A stretch of DNA of 64,000 nucleotides from an uncultured Clostridia bacterium (GTDB taxonomy: Bacteria; Bacillota; Clostridia; UBA1381), in the NCBI GenBank assembly GCA_944392335.1, contig CALXWJ010000001.1:1-64000 (forward strand), in the 5' to 3' direction. Positions within the stretch are counted from its first letter, which is position 1. Each line of letters starts with the position of its first letter. Under the pieces are notes generated by a model. It made no database searches. It had not been told where the DNA came from and worked only from the letters and a program-made list of their open reading frames with translations. Positions 25,739-45,189 of the stretch are shown one piece after another. A program made the position numbers and the translations under genes.

Positions 25739-25860
25739 TATAACTGCACGCAAGATGTCCCTCGCCGTAATCGGTGGTGGGTTCCATATTTGTAATCAGT
25801 GAAAGGATAATCTCCAACGTTGCGCGCTTGTCCTCGCCCAAGACGGGCAAGCCCTTATTG
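25739..25860 (-). repeat. Intergenic structured repeat, shortened copy D
   Basis: Reverse-oriented copy, from TATAACTGCACGC to CCCTTATTG. It is shorter than the others because part of the central stem-loop is missing. It lies 21 nt before the topoisomerase gene, so it may have replaced part of that gene's original control region. Confidence 0.75.
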
Positions 25861-36313: not shown

Positions 36314-39300
36314 ATGAATAAACGTTTGATGAGCGGTGTTTTGGCAGCGGGGTTGCTGCTGCTGAACTTATCTGAAGCCGCAGTTGCGGCGTATGACAAC
36401 ACTCACCAAAGAGATATCGGGGTAGATATTTATTCTGATATTGTTGTAGATGAAAATGTATTTGCTGATGAAATATTCCGCAATTGGATACTGGATAAGA
36501 ATAATCTTAACGGTATTGGTGAGGACGGAATATTGAGTTATGATGAGAGACAACTGATAAAGAGTATAGATGTATCGGAAAAGAATATCTCAAATTTAAA
36601 GGGTATAGAGGTTTTTATAAATCTTGAGGAGCTTGACTGTTCACGGAACCTGTTAACTTCGCTGGATTTGTCGCAAAACACTTTACTTAAAACTTTAAAC
36701 TGCAGTAATAACCAAATTACCGAGCTGTCTTTAATTAATCAGCCGGAGCTGACAAGCCTCAGCTGTAATTACAATCGTCTCACATTTTTAGATGTTTCAA
36801 ATAAGCCCAAGCTTCGTGCGTTAAGCTGTGAATATAACTACATTGAAGAGCTTAATATTACAGGAAATACAAGTCTTGAATGGATCAATGTAAGGACAAA
36901 TCTTCTTACCGGGCTTGATACAGCAGATAATGTAAAGCTAAAAGTAATAGAGGCATTTGATAATAAACTTGAAACAATTAATATAAGCACGCTTTCTGAT
37001 TTGGAGTTTTTAAATGTTGCCGACAATAAATTAACAGGGCTTGATTTGAGTCAAAATACAAACCTTTCGGTTGCAGGAGGTTTTGCGGCATCAAATAATC
37101 TTTTGGAAAAAATAACTTTGCCCAACAAGCCTGAGCTGAAAGTTGCACTTTCATCATTTCAGGAGCAGGAGCCTGTTTTGGGATATGACAGAGTAAAATG
37201 GTATGAGGATGAAGATTTAACTGTTGAATTAACCGATTCGGTTACGGCACAGGGACAAAGTCTTTATTCAAAAAGAATTGCCAATGATTATAAGGTATAT
37301 TTTTCAGCTAACGGCGGTAACGGAGTAATGCAGCCGCAGGAAGCAGTATATGGTGAAGAGTTTACACTCAGCGAAAATGCATTTACAAGAACCGGTTATA
37401 TATTTGAAGGTTGGAATACGATGCCAAAGGGTAACGGGACGTCATATGAAGACGCTGACAGTGTTCAAAACCTATCAGGCAAAAACAACGGCGGAAGAAT
37501 TACTTTATACGCACAGTGGAAGCCTGTTGAGTATACAATCAGATATGATGCAAATTCCGAAGAAGCCGAAGGGAGTATGGAAGATCAATCAGCGGTTTAT
37601 AATACAGACCTTACATTGAATGAATGTGGTTTTACCGTTGATGGTAAAGAATTTGCCGGCTGGTCACATCAGCCTGACGAACAAGTAAGATACAGCGGGG
37701 GTGCAAATGTTAAGAATCTTGCATCATCTCAGGGAGATACCGCAGTTTTATATGCTGTCTGGAAAACACCTGCTGAGGAGCTTCAAAAACCTTATCTTAC
37801 ACAGCTTGAAGAAACCTTTAACAGTTATTCAAGCAGTGATTACACTTCTGAGGACTGGGATTTGATTTCAAATGTATATTATGCTACAGAAATGTTGATA
37901 AGAAAAGAAATTGATCCGGAAAATATGAGTTTTTATTGTGACAGCGCCGCTGAAGAAATGGCAGCGATAAAGACAAAGACTGCAAGAGTAGAAGAAATTG
38001 CACAAAAATGGAATCTTAAGCATAATGATGTTATCCGGAATATTAATAACGGTGTTCTGAATGAGGATAATTGTGATGCTGAATATAAAAAGGCAGAATC
38101 CGCTCTTAATGAAATGACAGTAAAAGAGCTCGAACAATATTCTACACTTTTAAATCCGGAAGATCTTGAAAGAATAGCAGAAGAGGCGCTGCAGCAGATA
38201 AATGTTCATTCCGAGGATTTAACTGCTTATGCTGTGGCGGCTAAGTGGATAAGCGGTTTAAACAATGCTGCAAACAGACCTCTTACAGAGGTAAGAACAG
38301 ACAGCTTTGAGTTATATCAAACACTAAATACGCAATATAATCAACTATCGGAAAAAGAACAACAACAGATCGATGAAGATTTAACAGCGCGTCTGCAGGA
38401 ACGTTTAAGTTTGGTAACTCAGAAAAATAGTGCAGTTACTGAATTAAAGGGAGTATATTATTCTATAGATCAGAGTGAATATACAGATTACAGCCGTGAA
38501 GTTCTTATAAAAGCCTTGAATGATGGAATTGAAAAAATTGAAAAGAGCGAATCGGAAGAAATAATTTTGCAAGAACTTGCACAAAGCAAACAGGATATTC
38601 TAAATGTATCTGCCGATGAGGAAGAACCGGAACTTCCGGAAAACGGACCTTCTGATGACGAAGATGACAAAGAAGATGACGATGAAGGCAACGGAGACAA
38701 CAACGGTGGAAACGGCGGAAGTACAGGTGGAAACGGAAGCGGCGGAAATGGCGGAAGTTCAGGCGGAAGCGGAAACGGTGGAAGCTCCGGCGGAAGCAGT
38801 GGCAGCGGCGGAATAACATATCCTGTATATAAAATAGAAATTCCTGCTTTGGAAAATGGAACTGTTACTTCAAGTGTAAAACAAGCATTAAAGGGAACTT
38901 CTGTAACCCTGACGGTAACTCCTGATGAGGGATACCGTATAAAGACAGTAAAAGTAATAGATGCTAAAAACAACGAAGTTGCATTGACAAAGAAAGAAAA
39001 TGGCATTTATACATTTACAATGCCATATTCAAACGTAACAATAAAGGCTGAATTTGTAAGAGAATACTATGATTCTTTTATAGATGTAGACAAGGACACA
39101 TGGTATTATGATGCGGTATGTTATGTAAATGATAATGGTTTATTTAAAGGTATGAGCGATGACACATTCGGAACTGATATGCAAATGCTTCGTTCAATGC
39201 TTATGACGGTATTATATCGTGCGGCAGGTGAACCGGAAGTTAATGAAGATCATGGATTTGCCGATGTTGAGGACGGAATGTGGTATACCGATCCTATCAA

Positions 39301-39610
39301 ATGGGCAAAACAAAACGGTATAACATCAGGAGAAGATGATAATACCTTTGCTCCTCACAAGAGTATAACAAGAGAACAGCTTGTTGCGATGCTTTACAGA
39401 TTTGCCAAAACTCCTGAGTATAAAGGTGATTTAGTAGAGTTCACTGATGCAGACCAGATTGATGAATATGCATCAGATGCATTTAAATGGGCAGTTAATA
39501 AAGGAATTATTAACGGTATGGGTGACGGTACTTTGAATCCGAAAGGTGAAGCAAGCCGTGCTCAGGTTGCACAGATGATTATGAAATTTATGCAAGTTAT
39601 AAATAACTAA
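36314..39610 (+). CDS. Large SLH-anchored leucine-rich-repeat adhesin-like protein
   Basis: A 1098-residue exported wall protein built like an internalin. Order: signal peptide; leucine-rich repeats of about 21 residues (about 95-260; units such as LEELDCSRNLLTSLDLSQN); two InlB B-type repeats (about 326-402 and 405-490; TGYIFEGWNT, KEFAGWSHQP); helical FIVAR-like segments (about 497-770; YTSEDWDLISNV, YTDYSREVLIKALNDG); a Gly/Ser/Asn-rich linker (about 795-835); a bacterial-repeat beta domain (about 836-918); and three SLH repeats (921 to the end). LRR proteins of this kind bind proteins or glycans, so adhesion is the likely role; the partner is unknown. It forms its own unit with promoter and terminator. 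Confidence 0.88.
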   Translation: MNKRLMSGVLAAGLLLLNLSEAAVAAYDNTHQRDIGVDIYSDIVVDENVFADEIFRNWILDKNNLNGIGEDGILSYDERQLIKSIDVSEKNISNLKGIEVFINLEELDCSRNLLTSLDLSQNTLLKTLNCSNNQITELSLINQPELTSLSCNYNRLTFLDVSNKPKLRALSCEYNYIEELNITGNTSLEWINVRTNLLTGLDTADNVKLKVIEAFDNKLETINISTLSDLEFLNVADNKLTGLDLSQNTNLSVAGGFAASNNLLEKITLPNKPELKVALSSFQEQEPVLGYDRVKWYEDEDLTVELTDSVTAQGQSLYSKRIANDYKVYFSANGGNGVMQPQEAVYGEEFTLSENAFTRTGYIFEGWNTMPKGNGTSYEDADSVQNLSGKNNGGRITLYAQWKPVEYTIRYDANSEEAEGSMEDQSAVYNTDLTLNECGFTVDGKEFAGWSHQPDEQVRYSGGANVKNLASSQGDTAVLYAVWKTPAEELQKPYLTQLEETFNSYSSSDYTSEDWDLISNVYYATEMLIRKEIDPENMSFYCDSAAEEMAAIKTKTARVEEIAQKWNLKHNDVIRNINNGVLNEDNCDAEYKKAESALNEMTVKELEQYSTLLNPEDLERIAEEALQQINVHSEDLTAYAVAAKWISGLNNAANRPLTEVRTDSFELYQTLNTQYNQLSEKEQQQIDEDLTARLQERLSLVTQKNSAVTELKGVYYSIDQSEYTDYSREVLIKALNDGIEKIEKSESEEIILQELAQSKQDILNVSADEEEPELPENGPSDDEDDKEDDDEGNGDNNGGNGGSTGGNGSGGNGGSSGGSGNGGSSGGSSGSGGITYPVYKIEIPALENGTVTSSVKQALKGTSVTLTVTPDEGYRIKTVKVIDAKNNEVALTKKENGIYTFTMPYSNVTIKAEFVREYYDSFIDVDKDTWYYDAVCYVNDNGLFKGMSDDTFGTDMQMLRSMLMTVLYRAAGEPEVNEDHGFADVEDGMWYTDPIKWAKQNGITSGEDDNTFAPHKSITREQLVAMLYRFAKTPEYKGDLVEFTDADQIDEYASDAFKWAVNKGIINGMGDGTLNPKGEASRAQVAQMIMKFMQVINN

Positions 39611-40461: not shown

Positions 40462-40490
40462 TTGACAAGACTACAACTTTAGTCTATAAT
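40462..40490 (+). promoter_or_regulatory. Promoter and BlaI-type operator of the BlaI/M56 operon
   Basis: TTGACA (40462-40467) and TATAAT (40485-40490) are 17 nt apart. The spacer is filled by GACTACAACTTTAGTC, an inverted repeat (GACTA/TAGTC) with the ACTACA half-site typical of BlaI/MecI/CopY operators. Binding here would block RNA polymerase, so the operon is probably repressed by its own first product. Confidence 0.7.
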
Positions 40491-40499
40491 AATATATGA

Positions 40500-40705
40500 C
40501 CACAGTGGTAGTCCGAAATACCGCAGTTTAGCATGCAGCTGCAGTATTTTTGGACGGTTAAAAAAATTGAATTAGATAACTTGAAAAATAAGCGGCGTAT
40601 CTTGCCCTTTATCGGAGCTTTAAGTATAAACATACGTCGTCGCCTGTAAAAAGAGCAATCTGCTTGCTTCTTTTCCAAGTTATGATTTATGCCGCAAAAT
40701 GGCGG
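40500..40705 (+). ncRNA. Structured 5' leader of the BlaI/M56 operon
   Basis: The leader between promoter and first gene is over 200 nt. A hairpin GTCCGAAATAC/GTATTTTTGGAC (about 40511-40555) comes first. Then an 18-nt arm (40576-40593) pairs, with two mismatches, with 40666-40683, enclosing an inner CGGCGTAT/ATACGTCG stem (40593-40600 with 40632-40639) and a GAGCA/TGCTT hairpin. This multi-branched form looks like a regulatory RNA. I match it to no known riboswitch; it could also be a chance fold. Confidence 0.4.
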
Positions 40706-40721
40706 CGGAATGGAGATTAAA

Positions 40722-41090
40722 ATGGCAAGACAAACCGTAACAGAAACTGAATATGAACTGATGAAGGTATTATGGAATGCAGAAAAACCACTTTCGCTCG
40801 GTGAAATTTTAAATGAGGTAAGTGATAAAAACTGGGTGAGAAATACTGTTGGAACAATGCTTGCTCGTTTGTGCGAAAAGGGCGTTGTAAGCTATGAGAA
40901 AAAAGGCAAGATAAATTTATACTATGCTGTTTTGGCTGAAAATGAATACAGCATGAATGAAACAAAATCTTTTTTATCACGGTTGTATAATGGTTCTATA
41001 GGTAATCTTGTTGCGTCACTTTATCAGAACAGGGAAATTTCAAAAGATGAAATTGAAGCATTGAAAAAAATAATTGATTCGGAGAAATAA
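40722..41090 (+). CDS. BlaI/MecI/CopY-family repressor
   Basis: A 122-residue winged-helix repressor. It has the family opening (TVTETEYELMKVLWNAEKPL), the recognition-helix region (LGEILNEVSDKNWVRNTVGT then MLARLCEKGVVSYEKKGK) and a C-terminal dimerisation helix. Proteins of this type hold an operon off until a partner M56 protease causes their removal. I placed the start at 40722, 6 nt after GGAG; ATGs at 40689 and 40710 are less well placed. The M56 gene begins 3 nt after its stop, and a matching operator lies in the promoter. Confidence 0.88.
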   Translation: MARQTVTETEYELMKVLWNAEKPLSLGEILNEVSDKNWVRNTVGTMLARLCEKGVVSYEKKGKINLYYAVLAENEYSMNETKSFLSRLYNGSIGNLVASLYQNREISKDEIEALKKIIDSEK

Positions 41091-41093
41091 ACA

Positions 41094-41936
41094 ATGTTTG
41101 AGATAGTGAAGACAGTATTCTTATTAAGCTGCATAGGCACAGGGATTACATTGATACTGCTTTTAATAAAGCCTTTTACTGTCAGAAAATTATCTGCAAG
41201 ATGGCAGTATTTTGTATGGCTTGCGGTAGCAGTATGTATGATAATCCCCGTGTGGAAGATGATACCTGCAAGAGACGCTCAAAGGCTTACCCCTTATTTT
41301 GCGCAGGTGCAAACAGAGCAGGAGGGCGCAAAAAACAGCCAATCGGAGCCGCAGACGGTCGTGATCGAAGATACGCCTATGGAGTATAGGGAAATCACGA
41401 TCCGTTCAAAAGGTATCAGGATCTATGACATTATTTCATATGTTTGGCTGGGCGGTGCATGTTTGTTTCTTGCCTTTGCTTTCGGCAGCTATTTCATTTT
41501 TCTTGTCCGCAAAAAGAAAAGCAGCATGGACATGGAAGGAAATGAGACGTTTGAAAATATAAAACAGGAGCTTAATATCAAGCGTAAAATAAGAATACGA
41601 ATATCAAATGATACCGCATCTCCAATGCTTGTCGGGGTGTTTTTCCCGGTGATCTATCTGCCGGGCAGACCGATCGATGAAACGGCGGAAAAGATGATAT
41701 TCAGACACGAGCTTACCCATTATAAGCATAAAGATCTGATTTTTAAATGGTTCTCGCTGGTGGTAAATGCAGTCCATTGGTTCAATCCATTTGCGTATCT
41801 TGTCAGTGCAAATATCAGCGAAGCCTGCGAGGTGGCTTGTGATATGTCGGTAATAAAGGATATGACCGAGCAGGAACAAAAGATATATATGAACACTATT
41901 TTGGATTTGGTTCAAAAAAAGAAACGGAGGGAATGA
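41094..41936 (+). CDS. BlaR1/MecR1-like M56 membrane metalloprotease, without sensor domain
   Basis: A 280-residue membrane protease with hydrophobic segments at about 5-25, 38-57 and 113-138, the zinc motif HELTH at 205-209 and a downstream EACEVACD (243-250) that should give the third ligand. In BlaR1 a further membrane helix and an outer penicillin-binding sensor follow. Here the protein ends at KKKRRE just where those would begin. The next gene starts 1 nt after the stop in another frame and supplies the helix and an outer domain. So the receptor is split into protease and sensor subunits, either by an old frameshift or by design. Confidence 0.85.
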   Translation: MFEIVKTVFLLSCIGTGITLILLLIKPFTVRKLSARWQYFVWLAVAVCMIIPVWKMIPARDAQRLTPYFAQVQTEQEGAKNSQSEPQTVVIEDTPMEYREITIRSKGIRIYDIISYVWLGGACLFLAFAFGSYFIFLVRKKKSSMDMEGNETFENIKQELNIKRKIRIRISNDTASPMLVGVFFPVIYLPGRPIDETAEKMIFRHELTHYKHKDLIFKWFSLVVNAVHWFNPFAYLVSANISEACEVACDMSVIKDMTEQEQKIYMNTILDLVQKKKRRE

Positions 41937-41937
41937 G

Positions 41938-43056
41938 ATGTTTAAAAATTTCTATACAACACAAATGAGCACAGACCATAAACAGCTCCGGATAAGATTT
42001 GTAAAAATGCGGTCTAAAAGCGGCAGACTATCAAAAATTATGGCGGCGGTTATGGCAGTGACCCTTGCTTTTATGATGATGTGCGTAACTATCGTTATGG
42101 CGGCAACGGGAGAGGATGGTCTGGAGCATTGGGATAAAAATGAGATATATTTTCGTGATGGGATTGATTTTAGCATTAACTTGTATAATCAAGATGTTCC
42201 CAAATGGCTGCAAGACAATATTTCAGGAGAAAATGAACTTGTAAACTTCAAAATCAGGAACTATGATGTGCGTTACGCTGACGGTATAGTAAATTATGGA
42301 GGTTTTGCGCAGGTTTCCGGAGAACTAGGTACATACATATTTCCAGTGCAGGTCGGTATAGGTCTGCCGGACGGTGTATTCTCAACCTTATATTCTGAAA
42401 GAGATTTACAGAAATTGTTTGATAATACAAATGCAGCATATTTTACAGGATTATCTTTTACAACAGGCGGCGGAAGCGGTCATATAATAACATCTAATCT
42501 TGTGGTAAACGAATATTTGTCTGCGAACAATGTAGAAATCGGAGCAGGAGAAAATTTTGAGATTTTATTCGGTTTTTCAGAAGATGATCAGCTTGTTTCC
42601 ATTGGCTGCACTTCTCAGTATAATGTTGATAGATTTTACTATCTTACGGCAGATATGACTTCTGTAAAAATGATAGGAGATATTAAAAGTAAATTGAATG
42701 ATGAGTGGTTACTTACTCCCACAGGCAGTGCATTCACATCGTTTGAAAAAAATTATACAAACCGTAATTCTGATGATATTAAAATAAATCTAAAATCTGC
42801 GACAAAAGATGAAATTGTTTTAAATGTATCAAATAAACTTGAAGGTAATTATAGAATGGACATTGATGTGTACCGTGATGATGGTGATAAAGTGATAGGA
42901 ACGGAACGCACAATAGGGTCGGGAGAAATAACGGTTGATTGGAAGGAAAATTTTACTCCAAAATCAGGTGATGTATGCAGGATTAATTTATATATTACTG
43001 ATGAAAACAGTGATAAAGTTGTTTACCGTTGGCAAGAGTATGTAACAATTCAATAG
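41938..43056 (+). CDS. Sensor-like membrane protein 1 (separate outer domain for the M56 protease)
   Basis: A 372-residue protein with a basic inner end (MFKNFYTTQMSTDHKQLRIR) and one membrane helix (about 34-57, IMAAVMAVTLAFMMMCVTIV). An outer region of about 310 residues, beta-rich, has no family I know and no penicillin-binding SxxK motif in a convincing context. Its N-terminal 69 residues match the separated end of BlaR1-type proteins and are almost the same as those of the next gene; the outer parts differ apart from the ends (VYRWQEYVTI). The role is inferred: ligand-sensing partner of the M56 protease. Confidence 0.65.
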   Translation: MFKNFYTTQMSTDHKQLRIRFVKMRSKSGRLSKIMAAVMAVTLAFMMMCVTIVMAATGEDGLEHWDKNEIYFRDGIDFSINLYNQDVPKWLQDNISGENELVNFKIRNYDVRYADGIVNYGGFAQVSGELGTYIFPVQVGIGLPDGVFSTLYSERDLQKLFDNTNAAYFTGLSFTTGGGSGHIITSNLVVNEYLSANNVEIGAGENFEILFGFSEDDQLVSIGCTSQYNVDRFYYLTADMTSVKMIGDIKSKLNDEWLLTPTGSAFTSFEKNYTNRNSDDIKINLKSATKDEIVLNVSNKLEGNYRMDIDVYRDDGDKVIGTERTIGSGEITVDWKENFTPKSGDVCRINLYITDENSDKVVYRWQEYVTIQ

Positions 43057-43073
43057 TAAAGGAGGTAAAGTAA

Positions 43074-44228
43074 ATGTTTAAAAATTTTTATACAACACAA
43101 ATGAGCACGGACCATAAACAGCTCCGGATAAGGTTTGTAAAAATGCGGTCTAAAAGCGGCAGATTCTCAAAAATCATGGCGGCGGTTATGGCAGTGACCC
43201 TTGCTTTTATGATGATGTGCGTAACTATTGTTATGGCGGCAACGGGAGAGGATGGACTGGAGCATTGGGATAAAAATGAGGCATATTTAATCGACGGGAC
43301 TTCCGTAAGTTTGTCAACTGACAAGGAGAATGTACCCCAATGGGTTTACGATAATGTGACAACTGACGGAAATATGGAACTTATAATGAAAAGATACGAA
43401 CTCAGGATGATTGATGGTTGGCTGATACCGATGAACTTACTTGAAATAAAAGGAAATATAGGAAGTATAACATTGGCTTCCAGCGCTGTCGAAAGGGGTA
43501 AAGTCACTAAACAAGACAAAGAAACAAACTCTTATAATCAATTTTTTCAACAAGCAGAAGAAAATGATCGTTTTATTCAATATACATTTATAGAATACAA
43601 CAATGAAGGGTACGGAAATGTAAAAAATATTATGGATAAATTTATACGTGCTAATATACAAGATAACGCAGGTGTTGTACTTGGCTTTACTATGTCTGAA
43701 GATTTTAAAATAAAAAAGGCATTTGTTTCTTTTACAGTAAATGATGAAAATGATAATATCAAGACAGAGTATCCGTGTATCAATATTGATTATATCAATT
43801 TTTCCGATATAGGTGATTTTCAAAATAATATGCAGGAAGCATATATAAAAATATGGGATTATAACTTTTCTGTGTATGAAAAAGATTACGAAAACAAATC
43901 AGTTGACGAAATTAAAATTTCAGTAATAGAAGCAAGCAAGGAAAGAATTACGCTGGATATTCAATGCAATCTTCCCGACATTGAAAGACGAGATATAAAT
44001 ATTTATAATGAATATGAAAATCTTGTTTTTACACCATATGAACATGATAAACTTTTTGGAAGTATCTCATTAACTCCTAAGGTTGAAGATATAGCCTCTG
44101 AAAAATGGGAGCAGGAAAATATTACAGGCAATTTTTTATCAGGACATAAATACAGGGTTACGGTTTGCTTAATAGACAGCAATAATAAAACAGTATACCG
44201 TTGGCAGGAATATGCAACGATCAAATAA
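43074..44228 (+). CDS. Sensor-like membrane protein 2 (paralogue with a different outer domain)
   Basis: A 384-residue protein in tandem with the previous one. The first 69 residues (inner end, membrane helix and the ATGEDGLEHWDKNE stem) are nearly the same; by my count about ten bases differ over the first 207. The outer region diverges sharply, then both end in VYRWQEY-x-TI. A shared anchor with diverged outer parts suggests duplication followed by rapid change or domain exchange, as seen in ligand-recognition or decoy receptors. AAAGGAGG precedes the start. The next gene overlaps nothing but begins 13 nt after the stop. Confidence 0.65.
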   Translation: MFKNFYTTQMSTDHKQLRIRFVKMRSKSGRFSKIMAAVMAVTLAFMMMCVTIVMAATGEDGLEHWDKNEAYLIDGTSVSLSTDKENVPQWVYDNVTTDGNMELIMKRYELRMIDGWLIPMNLLEIKGNIGSITLASSAVERGKVTKQDKETNSYNQFFQQAEENDRFIQYTFIEYNNEGYGNVKNIMDKFIRANIQDNAGVVLGFTMSEDFKIKKAFVSFTVNDENDNIKTEYPCINIDYINFSDIGDFQNNMQEAYIKIWDYNFSVYEKDYENKSVDEIKISVIEASKERITLDIQCNLPDIERRDINIYNEYENLVFTPYEHDKLFGSISLTPKVEDIASEKWEQENITGNFLSGHKYRVTVCLIDSNNKTVYRWQEYATIK

Positions 44229-44241
44229 AGGAGGATTTACA

Positions 44242-45189
44242 GTGAAAAAAATAATTGGTTTGTTATTGGTATTATCAGTTTTTTGCACATTGGGAATAAA
44301 TGTATTTGCACAGGATACGGTAGGCGGAAAAATCACGCTGACGCAGTTTTTGGGAGTTGACGAGGAAAACGCAAAAACCGTTACTCTCTCATACGGCGGA
44401 AATACTTACACGGTGGATAAAGCAAAATTTTTTGATTTGGCCGACAGTATTATTCTTACATCTACGCTTGACCCGCAGGAAACAGACATGGACGGGATTT
44501 ATATCACAGCACAGACAAGCAGCGGCGAATACTGTTACGCTTATCTTTCCGAAGCCGGCGGGGCTGACAAATACAGTCTTGCAATGAGCAGACTGCCTTA
44601 TGCCATGTATATAGCGGACAACAAAGAAGAATTGAACGGTCTGTATTCCATTGCCGGAATTTCATCAAAAAAGGTTTCTGATTGGGCAAAGGATACCGTT
44701 GCGGAATTTGAAAGCACTTATGGATTGTCAGAGCCCGATTTCGGTACCTCAGACTACACACAAAATATCACAAGAGAAATTTTTTGCAATATGGCGGATT
44801 ATACACTCCGACAGAACGGATACGACACCGGACATTATGATCAAAACCCGTTTGACGATGTTTCATCACCTACAGTCAGCAGACTGTACTATTCGGGCAT
44901 AATCAACGGAAAATCCGAAAAGACATTTGCACCAAATGATTATATCACCCGTGAGGAAGCTGCTGCAATTTTATATCGTATGGCAGAATTTATGAAAAAG
45001 GACATACCAAACGCGGCCGGTTCCTCGTATTATAATGATGAAGAGAAAATTTCCGACTGGGCAGTAGATGCGGTGAGTGCAATGCATGATATGGGAATTA
45101 TGGAGGGTGTGAGTGACAATGAATTTTCTCCAAAAACCACATATACCATTGAACAGTCGATCGCCACAATGATGAGGTTATATGAATAG
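44242..45189 (+). CDS. SLH-domain exported protein of the BlaI/M56 operon
   Basis: A 315-residue exported protein starting at GTG (44242), 7 nt after AAAGGAGG; the frame from 44212 lacks such a site. The signal peptide (KKIIGLLLVLSVFCTLGINV) is followed by a domain of about 150 residues that I do not recognise (ITLTQFLGVDEENAKTVTLS, then an Asn/Tyr-rich stretch). SLH repeats follow from about 175 (NITREIFCNM, GIINGKSEKTFAPNDYITRE, EKISDWAVDAVSAMHDMGIM, FSPKTTYTIEQSIATMMRLY). It is a counterpart of the SLH protein at 32644: both end signalling operons and both are followed after 1 nt by a 54-codon gene. Confidence 0.82.
   Translation: MKKIIGLLLVLSVFCTLGINVFAQDTVGGKITLTQFLGVDEENAKTVTLSYGGNTYTVDKAKFFDLADSIILTSTLDPQETDMDGIYITAQTSSGEYCYAYLSEAGGADKYSLAMSRLPYAMYIADNKEELNGLYSIAGISSKKVSDWAKDTVAEFESTYGLSEPDFGTSDYTQNITREIFCNMADYTLRQNGYDTGHYDQNPFDDVSSPTVSRLYYSGIINGKSEKTFAPNDYITREEAAAILYRMAEFMKKDIPNAAGSSYYNDEEKISDWAVDAVSAMHDMGIMEGVSDNEFSPKTTYTIEQSIATMMRLYE

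Follow-up and report, generated by a model that had tools for sequence, protein, structure and literature searches.

The 64,000-nucleotide stretch of DNA analysed here (the window), from an uncultured Clostridia bacterium, encodes an M56 protease followed by two tandem genes for sensor-like proteins, and raises the question of whether a BlaR1-type receptor is divided between separate proteins and, if so, where it is cut and what each part would do. The genes form one operon on the + strand, in the order BlaI-type repressor, M56 protease, sensor S1, sensor S2 and exported SLH-domain protein, the last of which is likely the final gene of the operon (Table 1). The preliminary description of the locus started at 40722, which is probably where the repressor, the first gene of the operon, begins; several homologues of this repressor open with MARQTVTE. 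The paired repressor typical of the BlaR1 family appears to be present, as the BlaI homologue and two operator-like dyads at the promoter. The sequence of dyad 2 also occurred upstream of blaI in L065, L088, L090, L096-L099, L101 and L149, and similar dyads precede most blaI genes of related operons. A scan of the 3.64 Mb genome with the dyad pattern gave exact matches only at the two sites of this operon, and no target of the BlaI-type system was found outside it. In several other operons, relatives of the exported TVGG-ITLTQFLG-domain SLH protein, with variable tails, are encoded after the last sensor; this protein is the likeliest output or partner of the sensor system. Just upstream of the operon, the window (36314-39610) encodes an exported protein of 1098 aa that has leucine-rich repeats, InlB-type repeats and three SLH domains.

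Table 1 Features of the operon and its promoter region (window coordinates)
Feature	Coordinates	Strand	Basis
Sigma-70 type promoter, TTGACA-17-TATAAT, full consensus	40462..40490	+	12/12 consensus positions matched
Operator-like dyad 1, GACTACAACTTTAGTC, between -35 and -10 boxes	40469..40484	+	Sequence
Operator-like dyad 2, GACCACAGTGGTAGTC, just after promoter	40498..40513	+	Sequence
BlaI/MecI-type repressor	40722..41090	+	Penicillinase_R match, 1.5e-30
M56 zinc protease without own last transmembrane helix or sensor, 280 aa	41094..41936	+	Peptidase_M56 match
Sensor S1, 372 aa, outer-domain class A	41938..43056	+	ORF
S1 N-terminal putative plug peptide MFKNFYTTQMS, equivalent of BlaR1 autocleavage loop, P4-P1' = Y6-M10	41938..41970	+	Alignment via L104 to 8exp; conservation
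S1 Arg20 codon, equivalent of BlaR1 domain-swapped Arg294'	41995..41997	+	Alignment; invariant in 84/84 sensors
S1 transmembrane helix (BlaR1 alpha10 equivalent), ends VMA	42028..42108	+	Predicted helix 30-57, low confidence
Sensor S2, 384 aa, outer-domain class A	43074..44228	+	ORF
S2 anchor, 207 bp near-identical to S1	43074..43280	+	8 differences in 207 bp
Exported SLH-domain protein, N-terminal TVGGKITLTQFLG domain	44242..45189	+	GGAGG before GTG start; SLH, 8.6e-20

The preliminary description held that the protease ends before the last helix of BlaR1, and that this helix and the sensor are encoded separately, twice in tandem. Both statements were borne out: the match to Pfam Peptidase_M56 (PF05569; 5.7e-51) covers model positions 3-271 of 296, and two separate ORFs follow. 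The subunit can be aligned to S. aureus BlaR1 as far as residue 269, and its predicted fold matched the cryo-EM structures of S. aureus BlaR1 best (8exr, E 9.1e-7). It carries HELTH, CEVACD and an equivalent of Tyr261, and the BlaR1-type gluzincin core (HEXXH, ExxxD, Tyr261) is present in the split protease; HEXXH and the Tyr261 equivalent were intact in all 50 split M56 proteins that cover the site. The NCBIfam equivalog model blaR1_generic matched the protease part only (125.8 bits) and did not reach its curated cut-off of 400 bits. Most split M56 proteins share a conserved VIEDTPxEYREI stretch in the outer loop (residues ~88-101 of the window protein, 41355-41396), roughly where BlaR1 has the loop that occupies the ligand site of the sensor.

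In S. aureus BlaR1, loop 271-289 occupies the active site and is cleaved between S283 and F284, being held there by L280, H282 and F284 at the P4, P2 and P1' specificity sites; two chains exchange helix alpha9, on which Arg294 lies, along with the last helix, so that Arg294' contributes to the active site of the other chain (PMC9834060). With the natural fused relative L104 as a bridge to BlaR1 (8exp), the alignment ran without gaps through the junction and placed sensor residues Y6-T7-T8-K/Q9-M10 on L280-S281-H282-S283-F284, and R20 on R294. T8 and R20 were invariant in 84 of 84 sensors, which also all have Y or F at position 6; M10 and F21 were each found in 83, and the helix-terminal Ala55 in 77. 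By this alignment, the gene break falls within the autocleavage loop, where the swapped part of BlaR1 is hinged, and each sensor therefore bears the putative plug, the Arg294 equivalent, the last helix and the outer domain. Thus the part swapped between BlaR1 chains appears to be a separate protein in the split system, and the sensor anchor would, by alignment, be more than a membrane helix, including an active-site plug loop and an equivalent of the catalytic arginine. In the single-chain AlphaFold model of S1, pLDDT was about 30-50 in the plug region. A hand alignment of the repressors showed S/A-L in most family members at the position of the BlaI cleavage site (N101-F102 equivalent), which would fit a bulky P1' residue.

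We examined the distribution of this arrangement by a sensor-profile search of 150 relatives, which gave matches in 37 genomes, some of them fused relatives. The recurring plan is BlaI, an M56 protein of about 275-288 aa, and then one to three separate sensor ORFs. Of the 49 operons that contain protease and sensor, 28 have one sensor, 14 have two and 7 have three; note that the operon and sensor counts include some closely related genomes. The anchors were conserved across the 84 sensors compared, which answers the question, posed in the preliminary description, of copy number and anchor conservation at related loci. We counted a sensor as free-standing when its match began at position 1-2 of the anchor model. 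By this rule, 391 evenly sampled genomes of the class included roughly 23, from nine families, with such sensors; among 299 genomes sampled from the phylum, the genome of the window alone had them. Long fused forms make up the majority of M56 proteins in the class. In the fused M56-sensor relatives the match to the anchor model begins at position 7, and they therefore do without the first six residues of the free sensors.

The two halves are not made as one polypeptide: they are separate ORFs, the gap from M56 to the first sensor varies between -44 and +263 nt, with every frame represented (20/15/14, i.e., random), and a ribosome-binding-like motif lies ahead of 83 of the 84 sensors, compared with a background of 13%. 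The range and frames of this gap ruled out frameshift joining or read-through of protease and sensor. In a tree computed without three distant rows, the 49 split M56 proteins fell on one side of a branch separating them from the nearest fused or truncated M56 proteins (SH-aLRT 97.6); the first tree, which contained those rows, had a very distant fused protein of the same genome (C16) among the split ones, on a branch of 7.5. The grouping is consistent with the split having arisen by one old fission. In one related genome (L138:2990-10285), a fused BlaI-M56-sensor set, with a fused protein of 655 aa, adjoins a split BlaI-M56-sensor-sensor-sensor operon.

The two sensors of the window share a near-identical anchor. 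The preliminary description had estimated about ten differences in the first 207 bases; the near-identity stood, and the count was corrected to eight by alignment. The first 57 codons differ at seven nucleotides with residue 31 as the sole protein change, and one of the 69 residues encoded by the 207 bp differs. Beyond the anchor, the strong divergence described earlier was also found, with 32% identity over 300 residues before the common VYRWQEY end. Neither sensor had a Pfam or NCBIfam match above cut-off. The penicillin-binding sensor domain found at the C terminus of BlaR1 and MecR1 had no match in the sensors in Pfam or NCBIfam, and no penicillin-binding or beta-lactamase family appeared among their matches in these databases even at E up to 1, in agreement with the earlier remark that no penicillin-binding motif is evident; the ligand is thus likely not a beta-lactam. 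The predicted model of S1 has a C-terminal fibronectin-III-like domain. Matches in the fold search were weak, the best single-domain match being fibronectin type III (TM 0.66 by target length, 95 columns), and the N-terminal half of the outer domain gave no convincing match.

Across the related operons, the outer domains fell into at least four blastp classes (26, 20, 7 and 3 members). Class B outer domains carry Cu_amine_oxidN1, and one examined member also has Big_14 and an M23 peptidase domain; the class C outer domain is DUF4829-like in two members. There is also a weak SLH match in the sensors, and these envelope-type domains (Cu_amine_oxidN1, M23 and the weak SLH match) suggest sensing of the cell wall or surface layer. 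Classes are mixed within operons, as in L067 (A-A-B), L079 (C-B-A) and L090 (A-B). The nearest anchor was that of a sibling in the same operon for 22 of 53 sensors, whereas the nearest outer domain was that of a sibling for only one, and lay outside the sensor's own operon for 50. Similarity of M56 correlated with that of the cytosolic anchor (rho 0.67), less with that of the helix (0.49) and not with that of the outer domain (0.09), although the correlation between anchor and M56 could stem from common ancestry of linked genes. A congeneric genome (G002) is 98% identical to the window in BlaI and 99.6% identical in S2 (over 284 aa), but its S1 outer domain is only 32% identical to that of the window; the block of low identity runs from ~41220 in the M56 gene, including the outer loop of the protease, to the start of S2. 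The outer domain closest to that of S1 comes from another genus (L067). Taken from sequence comparison, these data point to outer domains that have been swapped between species without tracking the protease, and to an anchor that does track it. This pattern fits recombination or gene conversion at the anchor, and the suspicion of gene conversion raised in the preliminary description gained support from the sibling counts, which indicate homogenisation.

Sensors also occur without an adjacent protease. On contig C65 of the same genome (L012:2851-4502, - strand), BlaI is directly followed by a third sensor of the same kind, and no M56 gene is present. The 22-bp dispersed repeat AATAACnnGACAAGCCCTTATT lies in the BlaI-sensor gap, where the protease gene would be, and on both sides of the locus, as if the protease had been lost at a repeat-flanked gap. 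No other intact split protease of this kind was found in the genome, and the M56 protein of the window could therefore serve three sensors. Two further M56 genes of this genome, on C66 (L014:1345-2492) and C90 (L013:1595-2458), look broken; one is split by a frame change, and the other breaks off directly behind the LTTQM motif, close to the end of a contig. A dispersed, MITE-like short repeat around GACAAGCCCTTATT occurs at eight exact places in the genome, and related 14-mers lie in the window at 25846, 35900, 46619 and 52471 (four, against 0.02 expected by chance). In another genome (G009, C17; L085:5739-11372), an orphan class B sensor has neither BlaI nor M56 beside it; exported SLH, solute-binding-like and TVGG-type proteins are encoded nearby.

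The reading that we favour, and hold to be probable, is that one protease is served in trans by exchangeable sensor-plug subunits, which supports the interchangeable sensors suggested in the preliminary description. The M56 protein would contribute three membrane helices and the zinc protease; from the sensor would come the plug peptide fitting the active site, a short helix bearing the arginine that would complete the active site of the partner, and the last helix together with the outer domain. Without a signal, the plug would sit in the active site while BlaI represses the operon. When the outer domain detects its ligand, probably a component of the cell envelope, motion would pass via the last helix, the plug would depart, and the protease would cleave BlaI; expression of the operon would follow, and with it that of the sensors and of the exported SLH protein. 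With a single split protease for S1, S2 and possibly the C65 orphan, these sensors may share it or compete for it, and different stimuli would therefore, on this proposal, converge on one repressor. Over half of the operons have a single sensor, so that sharing is not universal. We infer the physical complex, plug occupancy, the ligands and their sensing, BlaI cleavage, mixed pairing and sharing; the plug in the active site, the role of Arg294' and the cleavage of BlaI are taken over by analogy from established work on BlaR1. An extended form, which we regard as possible but somewhat short of an even chance, would be a combinatorial hub in which the protease is incomplete, neither shut nor fully active without a sensor; sensors, orphans included, would plug in as like or mixed pairs via the plug/arginine/helix module, and new outer domains would be acquired by recombination there.

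The anchor resembles a long signal peptide, and the sensors could instead be envelope proteins, exported and jointly regulated by BlaI and M56, whose anchors are merely unusual signal peptides or membrane anchors, with M56 acting alone or sensing by its own outer loop. The predicted helix of S1 ends in V-M-A|A, a possible signal-peptidase site, and its Ala55 is widely conserved; one outer domain contains an M23 peptidase domain; and mycobacterial BlaR, in the account given in PMC5473688, functions without a known sensor domain. However, conservation is highest in the cytosolic first 21 residues, which match the plug and Arg294 of BlaR1 and not a signal-peptide pattern, the anchor tracks M56, and the pieces missing from M56 are exactly those in the anchor. 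A signal-peptidase site is moreover found at the same relative place in BlaR1, at Gly331, 37 residues past Arg294 (PMC9834060), compared with 35 residues from Arg20 to Ala55 in the sensors. We therefore consider this explanation unlikely.

We give still less credence to the idea that the sensors are mainly decoys or inhibitors, with one per operon signalling and the rest keeping the protease shut. The plug peptide is predicted by homology to be autoinhibitory, and tandem copies have the plug in common and not the outer domain; nevertheless, the outer domains have been retained at full length and are diverse, extra copies show no signs of decay, and the arginine is kept in every sensor. Hardly any credence remains for the split genes being the remains of a fused BlaR1-like gene after frameshift and duplication, the contrary case named in the preliminary description. 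Broken M56 genes do occur elsewhere in this genome (C66 and C90), but the comparative data exclude recent debris beside fused homologues, because the split is kept in 49 conserved operons across many families, the active sites are intact, the sensors have ribosome-binding sites and the frames are random; the split M56 proteins also group together in the tree.

The preferred reading, of a protease served in trans by sensor-plug subunits, bears on a question that is only partly solved for BlaR1, namely how a signal outside is coupled to the protease inside, where the domain-swapped helix and the self-cleaved loop are most puzzling. Nature appears to have cut the receptor at precisely that loop and to have kept both halves across families; the plug, arginine and sensor would therefore be mutable, swappable and titratable on a separate chain, making the plug-release model directly testable. 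If true, this would be an unusual bacterial case of signalling by one protease with many sensors, and the common plug/arginine/helix module would predict where further hidden sensors are located. Searches of the open-access literature brought up no account of an M56 receptor split in this way.

Among known systems, S. aureus BlaR1/BlaI (PDB 8exp-8ext; PMC9834060) shares the BlaI-type repressor, the M56 gluzincin with HEXXH and ExxxD, and a sensor joined to the last membrane helix with a signal-peptidase site beyond; by sequence, its autocleavage loop and the Arg294 on its domain-swapped helix also have equivalents in the sensors. BlaR1 is, however, one polypeptide with one penicillin-binding sensor, whereas here there are two polypeptides, split in the autocleavage loop, and one to three sensors. 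MecR1/MecI of S. aureus follows the same protease-repressor logic but has a fused beta-lactam sensor; the NCBIfam MecR1 model matched over the protease only, far below its cut-off. In M. tuberculosis, BlaR (Rv1845c), with its repressor BlaI, is likewise an M56 protease without an attached extracellular sensor, according to PMC5473688 citing Sala et al. 2009; the part of that article concerned with it mentions no separate sensor genes, in contrast to the dedicated sensor genes of the window operon. The fused M56-sensor relatives of Clostridia (L104 and the 655-aa protein of L138) have the same LTTxM...RF module at the junction but, unlike the split system, continuous with the protease. The split operon thus probably encodes a BlaR1-type signalling system in two polypeptides.
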